NCBI RefSeq assembly: GCF_020991065.1
Contig: NZ_CP087710.1
Coordinates: 3,224,001 to 3,288,000, forward strand
DNA length: 64,000 bases
Source of the DNA: Nocardioides okcheonensis
GTDB lineage: Bacteria; Actinomycetota; Actinomycetes; Propionibacteriales; Nocardioidaceae
Direction: 5' to 3'
Shown: piece after piece, positions 20,220-50,134 of the stretch
How positions within the stretch are numbered: position 1 is the stretch's first letter
How the letters are laid out: the number at the start of each line of letters is the position of its first letter
Translations under genes and position numbers: made by a program
The notes under the pieces: model-generated
What the model was told of the DNA's origin: nothing
The model's input: only the letters and a program-made list of their open reading frames with translations
Database searches by the model: none

Positions 20220-20273
20220 GAGCGGTGCGTGAGGGGGGTTCTGGGCGTGCGAAGTCCCCCTCACTCACCGCCA
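20220..20273. repeat. 54-nt palindromic element, copy with changed inner arm
   Basis: Outer arms GAGCGGTG (20220-20227) and CACCGCCA (20266-20273, 6 of 8 pairs) are kept. The inner arm is GTGAGGGGG (20229-20237) pairing with CCCCCTCAC (20256-20264), unlike the ACCCACATTCC arm of the other copies, yet the length is exactly 54 nt and pairing is preserved. Could also end transcription of the upstream gene. Confidence 0.55.
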
Positions 20274-20404: not shown

Positions 20405-20458
20405 GGGCGGTGGCTGAGCCACGTTCTGCGCGGCCGGAGTGTGGGTGGGGCACCGCTG
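20405..20458. repeat. 54-nt palindromic element, diverged copy
   Basis: The right arm (20436-20458) differs from the family consensus at three positions, and the left arm starts GGGCGGTGGC. Length is again 54 nt. It lies 185 nt start-to-start from the copy at 20220. Confidence 0.6.
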
Positions 20459-20600
20459 GCGCGAGGTGGTCGTCGGGGTGCGGACGGAGGCGTGGGTCCG
20501 CGGGTCCGGAGGTGTGTCGTCGGAGAACTGCGGCCGTACGACGCGCCGCGGACGTCCCGTGCGGTCGCGCGGCCGCAGTTCTTCCCGGCCGTGGCCGCCC

Positions 20601-31218: not shown

Positions 31219-31817
31219 GCGCGGGGCGTACGCGCTCCGCCCGGGGTCGGCGTCCCGGCGCGCCCGACACGCGCGCCGAGGTGCTCGCCGCCGCCCGCGA
31301 GTCGTTCGCCGGCAAGGGCTTCCGCGGCACCACGATCCGCGCCGTCGCCGCCGCCGCGGGCGTCGACCCGGCGCTGGTGCACCACTACTTCGGCTCCAAG
31401 GACGACCTCTTCCTCGCCGCGCTCGAGCTGCCCGTCGACCCGCGCGAGGTGCTCGCGCCCGTGGTGGCACAGGGGCCCGACGGCGCGGGCGAACGCTTCC
31501 TGCGGACCTTCCTCTCGGTCTGGGACGACCCGGAGATGCAGGTCCGGCTGCTCGCGGTGGCGCGCTCGGTGCTCTCCGAGGACGGGGGCGCCCTGCTCAA
31601 GGAGGGCTTCATCCCGGTCGTCGTCGGGCCGGTGCTCGCCCAGGTCGTCGCCGACCGCCCGGAGGTCCGGGTGCCGCTCGTCGCCAGCCAGGTCGTCGGC
31701 CTGATCGTCACCCGCTACGTCGTCGCGCTGCCCCCGATGGCCGCGATGCCCGCCGACGACCTCGTCGCGCGGATGGCGCCGGTGCTGCAGCACTACCTCA
31801 CCGGCGACCTCGCCTGA
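31215..31817 (+). CDS. TetR-family transcriptional regulator
   Basis: 200 residues. N-terminal HTH reads [44 protein letters not shown] in register with the TetR signature; the rest is the helical ligand domain with a TetR_C_17-like look. The GTG overlaps the preceding stop (GTGA). It lies upstream of an ABC exporter, separated by a pair of palindromic elements, and could control it (inference). Confidence 0.9.
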
Positions 31818-31855
31818 GGCGCGTACCTCCGCCGCCGAACGCCTGCCTGCCCCGG

Positions 31856-31909
31856 GAGCGGTGACCCACCCACATTCCTGCGGTCGGGAATGTGGGTCAG
31901 CCACCGCTC
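31856..31909. repeat. 54-nt palindromic element, pair 1 copy A
   Basis: Outer arms GAGCGGTG (31856-31863) and CACCGCTC (31902-31909) pair perfectly, as do the inner arms ACCCACATTCC (31868-31878) and its complement (31887-31897); the loop is 8 nt and a 4x4 internal loop separates the stems. Confidence 0.8.
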
Positions 31910-31937
31910 GTACGCCAAGCACCTCGCGCGCCGCTGG

Positions 31938-31991
31938 GAGCGGTGTCCCACCCACGTTCCTGTGCCCGGAAATGTGGGTCACGCACCGCTC
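31938..31991. repeat. 54-nt palindromic element, pair 1 copy B
   Basis: Same length and arms (GAGCGGTG 31938-31945, CACCGCTC 31984-31991; inner ACCCACGTTCC) 82 nt after copy A. The changed base gives a G-T pair, so the stem is kept. Confidence 0.8.
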
Positions 31992-31999
31992 GGCGGGGG

Positions 32000-32028
32000 T
32001 TGACGGCGCACGCCCGCGAGCGCACAAT
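32000..32028 (+). promoter_or_regulatory. Promoter of the ABC exporter operon, leaderless type
   Basis: TTGACG (32000-32005), 17-nt spacer, CACAAT (32023-32028), then 7 nt to the ATG at 32036. This is the best complete promoter in the window and leaves no room for a leader. It starts 8 nt after the second palindromic element. Confidence 0.6.
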
Positions 32029-32035
32029 TCAACAC

Positions 32036-32752
32036 ATGATGAAAAACGTCGTGGAGGTCCGTGACCTCGTCGTCGTGCGAGGTGCGCGCGAGGTGCTGCC
32101 GGGCATCTCGCTGGACGTTGCTCCCGGGGTCACCGGGCTGCTCGGGCCGAGCGGCTGCGGCAAGACCACCCTGCTGCGCTGCCTCGTCGGCGCGCAGCAG
32201 GTGCGGTCCGGGGACGTACGGGTGCTGGGGGAGCCGGCCGGCAGTGCGCCGCTGCGCACCCGGATCGGCTACGTCACGCAGGCGGCGAGCGTCTACGACG
32301 ACCTCACGGTCGCGGAGAACCTCGCCTTCTTCGCGCGCGTGCTCGGCGTCGGGCGCCCGGCGGTCGACGAGGCGATCGACGCGGTGTCGCTCGGCGACCA
32401 CCGCGACCAGGTGGTGGGCCGGCTCTCCGGTGGCCAGCGCAGCCGCGCCGGGCTCGCCGTGGCGCTCCTCGGCAGCCCCGACCTGCTCGTGCTCGACGAG
32501 CCGACCGTCGGCCTCGACCCGGTGCTGCGGCGCGACCTCTGGGCGCTGTTCCACCGGATCGCCGACGCCGGCGCGGCCGTGCTGGTCTCCAGCCACGTGA
32601 TGGACGAGGCCGAGCGGTGCCACCGGCTGCTGCTCATGCGCGAGGGGCGGATCATCGCCGACGGCTCGCCCGAGCAGGTCCGGGCCCGCACGGGCGCCGC
32701 CGACATCGAGGGCGCCTTCCTCCAGCTGGTCGAGCAGGGGGTGTCGAGGTGA
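32036..32752 (+). CDS. ABC exporter ATP-binding protein
   Basis: 238 residues. Walker A GPSGCGKTT, Q-loop VTQAASVYDDLTV, signature LSGGQRSRAG, Walker B LLVLDEPTVGLDP and the switch His in VSSHVMDEA. The family (CcmA/DrrA-like) pairs with ABC-2 permeases, as the next gene does. The start MMKNVVEV is chosen because a promoter lies directly upstream. Likely exports a drug, lipid or toxic compound; the TetR gene upstream would fit that. Confidence 0.92.
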   Translation: MMKNVVEVRDLVVVRGAREVLPGISLDVAPGVTGLLGPSGCGKTTLLRCLVGAQQVRSGDVRVLGEPAGSAPLRTRIGYVTQAASVYDDLTVAENLAFFARVLGVGRPAVDEAIDAVSLGDHRDQVVGRLSGGQRSRAGLAVALLGSPDLLVLDEPTVGLDPVLRRDLWALFHRIADAGAAVLVSSHVMDEAERCHRLLLMREGRIIADGSPEQVRARTGAADIEGAFLQLVEQGVSR

Positions 32753-49995: not shown

Positions 49996-50053
49996 ACGAG
50001 CGGTGGCCCACCCACATTTCGTACGTCCCGAATGTGGGTGGGCCACCGCTCGT
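49996..50053. repeat. 54-nt palindromic element, pair 2 copy A (best copy)
   Basis: The element spans 49998-50051; perfect pairing extends to 49996-50018 with 50031-50053, 23 bp around a 12-nt loop. Outer arm GAGCGGTGG, inner arm CCCACCCACATT. Confidence 0.85.
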
Positions 50054-50080
50054 TCGGTGTGTCGCGGGTGACACTCCGCC

Positions 50081-50134
50081 CGGCGGTGGTGGACCCACAG
50101 TCCGAGCGCCCCGAACGTGGGTGGGCCACCGCTC
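50081..50134. repeat. 54-nt palindromic element, pair 2 copy B
   Basis: 83 nt after copy A. The right arm (50113-50134) matches the consensus except one base; the left arm has diverged but still pairs over GCGGTGG and ACCCAC. Confidence 0.75.

Follow-up and report, generated by a model that had tools for sequence, protein, structure and literature searches.

The window, i.e., the whole stretch of 64,000 nucleotides that was analyzed, comprises positions 3224001 to 3288000 of the single 4.47-Mb contig of Nocardioides okcheonensis (G000:C1:3224001-3288000; G000 is the N. okcheonensis genome). Between a TetR-family regulator gene and a gene for the ATPase of an ABC transporter, it contains a tandem pair of palindromic elements, and further copies are located at two other sites. 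The features are:

20220..20273, no strand: 54-bp dyad element, GRGG class (sequence; class-2 pattern)
20405..20458, no strand: 54-bp dyad element, CCAC class, between convergent genes (sequence; model R1)
31281..31817, plus strand: TetR-family regulator gene (Pfam TetR_N, TetR_C_16)
31856..31909, no strand: 54-bp dyad element, CCAC class, pair member 1, behind the TetR gene (sequence; model R1, 72.2 bits)
31910..31937, no strand: linker between the pair members, 28 nt, no clear small dyad (sequence)
31938..31991, no strand: 54-bp dyad element, CCAC class, pair member 2 (sequence; model R1, 68.6 bits)
32000..32028, plus strand: promoter-like TTGACG-17-CACAAT of the ABC-transporter gene (sequence; same place in most of 30 relatives)
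32036..32752, plus strand: ABC transporter ATPase gene, downstream of the pair (Pfam ABC_tran)
49998..50051, no strand: 54-bp dyad element, CCAC class, palindrome near-perfect (sequence; model R1)
50052..50080, no strand: 29-nt linker with its own weak dyad GGTGTGTC...GACACTCC (sequence)
50081..50134, no strand: 54-bp dyad element, CCAC class, 83 nt from its neighbor (sequence; model R1)

A preliminary description of this DNA had reported two elements of exactly 54 nt with starts 82 nt apart at 31856-31909 and 31938-31991, six copies of this length in three regions, and an end of the nearer element (31938-31991) 8 nt upstream of TTGACG-17-CACAAT. All of this was confirmed, with the six copies situated at three gene ends (20220/20405, 31856/31938, and 49998/50081). 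The outer arms, GCGGTG/CACCGC, and the length are common to all six; the inner arms are of the CCAC type in five of the six elements and GTGAGGGGGG in the element at 20220. The element at 20405..20458 has CTGAG in its left and CCCAC in its right half. The first element of the pair begins 38 nt behind the stop codon of the TetR gene, and the start of the ABC-transporter gene at 32036 is so close behind the promoter-like motif that this gene is probably leaderless. Rfam contributed no family at the gathering score over the window. Behind the disA gene, positions 20524-20582 harbor an inverted repeat of 19 nt around a 21-nt loop, which is unrelated to the 54-nt family and at a terminator-like position.

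The six elements are not the only copies in the genome. When the covariance model R1, built from 21 copies, was combined with the patterns of both arm classes, the chromosome of N. okcheonensis yielded 80 distinct places in 42 clusters, which were 14 singles, 23 pairs, 2 triples, 1 quadruple, and 2 quintuples, so that 28 of the 42 clusters contained at least two units. The class-1 pattern alone, with up to 3 mismatches, gave 42 forward and 47 reverse matches genome-wide and the class-2 pattern 22 and 21, compared to none for either reversed-pattern control, which indicates that the family is not a product of chance. Half of the clusters (21 of 42) are located within one fifth of the chromosome, G000:C1:3183837-4121533.

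An arm-free strict pattern matched 41 of 215 genomes of the same genus (N. okcheonensis included) at least once, and its control matched none of the 215. The copies numbered 4 to 84 in 36 of the 215 genomes and one in five genomes, and among the latter at least the match in G044 was not palindromic. This pattern is strict, as illustrated by G010 with 27 model matches but no strict-pattern match. Order-wide, 31 of 391 genomes and 3 of 40 genera had matches, compared to a single control match (in G270), and two genomes of another genus of the same family (G353 and G484; L225 and L226) contain palindromes at low copy number that share the outer arm and length but have the tag CGTCC. No description of the family in the genus Nocardioides was found in a literature search mostly beyond subscription journals, in agreement with the earlier view that such elements had not been described in this lineage. 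A viral source was considered and dropped after one exact pattern gave no match in viral contigs.

The length of the element is nearly constant. It was 54 nt in 99 of 102 non-redundant palindromes and 55 nt in the other 3, with lengths from 40 to 69 nt being tested, despite a middle part of about 10 nt that is free in sequence. The start-to-start distances of 67 neighboring pairs were 82-84 nt in 45 cases, 71-73 in 10, 61-63 in 3, and 52 in 1, and the remaining eight were 79, 80, 81, 91, 102, 165, 166, and 185 nt. A second list from the relatives, which partly overlaps the first, contained 34 distances among the matches listed: 82-83 in 21 cases, 71-73 in 3, and 61-62 in 6, plus 77, 79, 137, and 167; it omits eight rows (four of the crgA type, two of an identical tandem in G072, and one each from G044 and G070, these last two without clear palindromy). 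Thus, the spacing modes step by about one helical turn, and off-mode spacings (77, 79-81, and 91) also occur. For the spacings outside the 82-84 mode, each array was reduced by hand to a single value and values above 110 were left aside; the resulting 23 were clustered beyond all of 2000 uniform draws. Their best period was 9.75 (resultant 0.73), compared to a resultant of 0.66 at 10.4, so that helical phasing of the element rows is suggested by these sequences, not measured. Most pairs have a linker of 29 nt, with 28 nt at 31910..31937, and the 29-nt linkers of 21 N. okcheonensis pairs share a weak dyad, GGCGTGTC...GACACGCC, the halves of which vary independently.

On the basis of gene positions from a simple in-house gene caller, 23 of the 42 clusters were convergent, 18 tandem, and 1 divergent, the last being a weak model match of 35 bits. 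Forty-one clusters were located behind at least one gene end; the nearest stop codon was at a median distance of 19 nt and no more than 60 nt away in 39 of these 41, and none of the 80 places was inside a called gene, bar overlaps of a few nucleotides. Element-free gaps of at least 20 nt in the same stretches were 13 convergent, 83 tandem, and 40 divergent (n = 136), and the divergent share of the elements, 0 of 38 in a count that lacks a few clusters of the 42-cluster set, differed from that of these gaps with a Fisher p of 1.6e-5. The neighboring genes are mixed, with DisA, ALAD, the ribosomal protein L17, a UvrD-type helicase, Ku, and CrgA among their products. Seventeen of 20 neighboring proteins had a Pfam family, none of them a transposase or phage family, and a common function of the neighbors was dropped as an explanation in view of this mixed set.

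These positions bear on the suggestion that the elements bind a regulator of the adjacent promoter. Sites of an operator or upstream-activator type, serving the ABC-transporter promoter in this case, would agree with the arrangement at 31856-31991: in 15 of 18 genomes, 5-9 nt separate the end of the last element from TTGAC, whatever the class of the element, and in G120 and G121 this distance is 16-17 nt; this agreement concerns this locus only. The 18 genomes are those out of 30 (N. okcheonensis included) in which elements were detected, and the same scan found none at this promoter in the other 12, of which G056 keeps a decayed half and two have no recognizable promoter box. The scan also missed the nearer copy of G021 at this locus, which is visible in the sequence. 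This absence in 12 relatives, the mixed neighbors, and the location of 41 of 42 clusters behind a gene end, with a single weak divergent case, argue against regulation of promoters as a general function, and the operator explanation is very improbable.

A position directly behind stop codons would be expected of bidirectional terminators, in this case RNA hairpins without a U-tract, and stopping of transcription of the TetR gene had also been proposed for the pair. The tight connection to stop codons fits the gene-end part of this proposal. Intrinsic terminators possess a G+C-rich stem followed by a T run; in positions 31700-32200, which were the only locus scanned, there was no terminator-like site and no T-run at the pair, which speaks against the termination part. 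Moreover, at least one locus, L070b of N. okcheonensis, has a separate conserved hairpin beside its element pair.

Whether RNA or DNA is recognized should leave a trace in the variation of the arms. Of 77 N. okcheonensis elements with exact outer arms, 52 were CCAC/CCAC, 21 GRGG/GRGG, and 4 variants. There was no CCAC/GRGG hybrid among the 77, so the class tag matches on the left and right side. Within the CCAC class, the left-right agreement of 149 distinct cores, taken from 10 genomes (an eleventh, G050, gave none; near-identical centers were counted once), summed to 595 over eight variable arm positions, compared to 637 after shuffling within genomes; at positions 11 and 12, it was below chance. 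Compensatory changes between the arms were seen neither in these cores nor within class in N. okcheonensis. In this genome alone, positions 19, 25, and 27 agreed somewhat above chance, position 27 at a level of 0.001; positions 25 and 27 adjoin the element center, and position 19 was at 0.075 in the pooled set. When shuffling was pooled across genomes, an excess appeared at positions 9, 19, and 20; it was not borne out by shuffling within genomes. In 56 elements oriented by their upstream gene, the transcribed strand had no clear excess of G.T over A.C mispairs (59 versus 52).

Two recognition halves on duplex DNA would fit this variation better than a selected stem. Alternatively, a hairpin that requires an internal loop at positions 11-12 could be involved, since all folded elements form strong hairpins (-29.5 to -46.5 kcal/mol for the eight strands folded). 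This predicted folding also favors RNA terminators; the missing pairing-keeping co-variation within class and the missing excess of G.U over A.C argue against them, and RNA would leave the fixed length and the stepwise spacing unexplained.

The copy located 34 nt behind crgA (L060:6140-6193; G000:C1:2726539) differs from the dispersed ones in being near-invariant. In the 30 genomes with the best hits (N. okcheonensis included), a 36-nt probe matched this copy with no mismatch in 27 and with one in 3, and the sameness includes the element center. Sequences more than about 12 nt outside the copy, on the side away from crgA, are not alike as judged by eye. Among 20 further genomes, in at least two of which the anchor was misplaced, 2 (G173 and G212) had a related form and 18 did not, and several of these 18 non-carriers contain, by eye, a plain hairpin at the crgA position. 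Its few variant forms preserve base pairing on the strand of crgA, so the crgA copy may act as RNA, even if the dispersed copies do not. Both the plain hairpins and the kept pairing are in favor of terminators; with the arguments against them given above, RNA terminators are nevertheless a quite doubtful explanation for the family. By the strict pattern, G138 has only the crgA copy and G162 none, indicating that the dispersed sites are dispensable; the 36-nt probe shows that both genomes retain the crgA copy. Adjoining the crgA copy, between the rhomboid gene and crgA (L060:5930-6090), is a row of DnaA-box-like motifs (TTATCCACA, TGTGGACAA, and similar ones), and similar motifs are present in many of the 20 other genomes.

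Comparison with relatives revealed how the elements change in place. In a tree of the downstream genes, the sisters G016/G214, G007/G094, and G070/G075 differ in the tag at 31856-31991. The nearest sister of N. okcheonensis is G021, with 91% identity at this locus. From G021, 26 stretches were compared, which had been picked from CCAC-model matches so that the class counts of G021 are biased; 19 matched a N. okcheonensis stretch with scanned elements nearby, one (L216/L062) matched a pair of N. okcheonensis that the scan had missed, and six matched none of those compared. Of 17 lined-up pairs, 16 were kept, including L070/L222, which was set in the wrong register. Copy numbers at matched sites often differ between the two genomes. 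The clearest case is L122/L078, where both N. okcheonensis elements are GGGG-tagged and both G021 elements CCAC-tagged; 28 of 29 linker positions are identical and the flanks match up to the outer arms. Because each switched element shares only 30 of 54 letters with its G021 partner, a block exchange of the inner ~38 bp is far more likely than point mutation. The same core exchange is found in a single element at L055/L212 and, together with a changed copy number, at L117/L220 and L119/L214. The outer arms of the two genomes agree in 192 of 192 positions, a number that is biased because the elements were found by those arms. As donor of the exchanged cores, the best candidate was another N. 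okcheonensis copy with 34 of 38 letters; this was in the range of all copies of this genome, and the candidate was rejected. No clean target-site duplication was present in the two one-sided sites that were aligned. Opposite L058:1296, where N. okcheonensis has a 54-nt element, G021 (L206) carries another palindromic repeat, CGAGGCTCGC...CGCTCGCACCTC, and a repeat similar to this type is present in G165 (L200).

The preliminary description had compared the elements with REP/BIME sequences, which are 20-40 bp long and extragenic in enterobacteria and pseudomonads (PMC2817692, PMC3733652) and usually form families of more than 100 copies (PMC2817692). As far as the available parts of these sources describe them, both are short extragenic palindromes, dispersed, often in regularly spaced groups and mostly near gene ends; the family studied here differs in its length of 54 bp, in having no GTAG/CGTC tag, and in having no RAYT, and its 80 copies are many but below the usual number. 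In addition, the arms do not co-vary, the tag is exchangeable, and cores are exchanged in place. Palindromic units in regularly spaced groups are also a feature of BIMEs, and BIMEs bind gyrase, IHF, or other proteins. Within 10 nt of the 154 ends of the 77 elements, GTAG did not occur, and CGTC was found at 9 ends with scattered offsets. The Y1 transposase domain PF01797, detected in 5 of 14 control genomes, was absent from the genome of N. okcheonensis and present in 1 of 215 genomes of the genus, G148, which has no strict-pattern element; hence, an association with RAYT did not hold. The likeness to REP/BIME therefore stands for dispersed, extragenic, often paired palindromes of fixed length but not for membership in REP/RAYT, which was dropped because of the missing Y1 transposase, GTAG, and compensatory arm changes.

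MITEs are characterized by inverted ends without coding capacity, a duplication of the target site, and a parent transposon that carries these ends too. The family resembles them in lacking coding capacity and in its inverted ends, two per element and each about 22 bp long, and it is unlike them in that the sequence between these ends is just 10 bp long and mostly unrelated; no parent transposon was seen at the loci examined. REPINs, in the part of the source available, also have two inverted conserved ends around a less conserved center of near-constant length; in contrast to the 54-bp elements, they are reported to show compensatory hairpin changes and to be accompanied by a RAYT, and their ends are 71 or 110 bp apart (PMC3116915), compared to 54 bp for the whole element here. 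Untagged REP-like families occur in other bacteria, e.g., Mycobacterium tuberculosis (PMC3733652), which provides an actinobacterial parallel without a terminal tag; the available portion of that description mentions no fixed 54-bp dyad, stepwise spacing, or class tags.

The elements could be miniature mobile palindromes similar to REP/BIME, moved by a transposase other than Y1/RAYT and surviving behind genes where they are harmless. The copies are dispersed, their number varies between sisters, site presence is patchy among relatives, tandem duplications exist, up to 49 of 54 letters are identical between some unlinked copies, and the untagged families just mentioned offer a precedent. Against mobility as the main explanation are the missing Y1 transposase and GTAG tag, the independent half-sites instead of compensatory changes, the centers in most unlinked pairs, which are free and not copied, the exchange of cores rather than plain insertion, and the median of 19 nt to the stop codon. 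Mobile palindromes are possible, if unlikely.

The explanation tentatively preferred, although it falls somewhat short of an even chance, is that the elements are dyad sites on duplex DNA for a candidate symmetric protein, form a block at gene ends, and have their cores exchanged in place. Two half-sites of about 22 bp (GRGCGGTG-N-5 bp-class tag-TTC) would flank the free 10-bp center and be read by this protein at the 3' ends of genes. Bound singly or in helically phased rows, it would most likely act as a gene-end block, either by stopping or insulating transcription or by anchoring supercoils where genes converge, as has been proposed for BIMEs. The copies may turn over partly by exchange of the inner core with the outer arms remaining fixed. 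We infer the protein, what it does, and how the cores are exchanged from the fixed length of 54 despite the free center, the independence of the half-sites together with the missing G.T excess, the connection to stop codons, the spacing modes, and the core exchange relative to G021. The strong hairpins, the matching class tags, the agreement at positions 25 and 27, and the pairing of the crgA copy count against such duplex sites, as do the off-mode spacings and the dispensability of the dispersed copies. In a more far-reaching version, which is rather improbable, the elements would be a new kind of chromosomal address system, made of rigid duplex dyads that lie behind genes on one helix face, keep their outer arm constant while the tag can be swapped, and are read by a candidate protein; core swaps would change the tag while the sites are kept, and the near-invariant copy behind crgA would be the founder.

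Interspersed bacterial palindromes have mostly been explained as RAYT-driven hairpins. This family has a BIME-like layout, but its sequence seems to behave like a double-stranded protein site with stepwise spacing. Should the protein be found, the elements would provide a test case for gene-end insulation or supercoil anchoring in high-GC actinobacteria, and the in-place exchange of cores between sisters is a natural experiment on the replacement of one repeat class by another.
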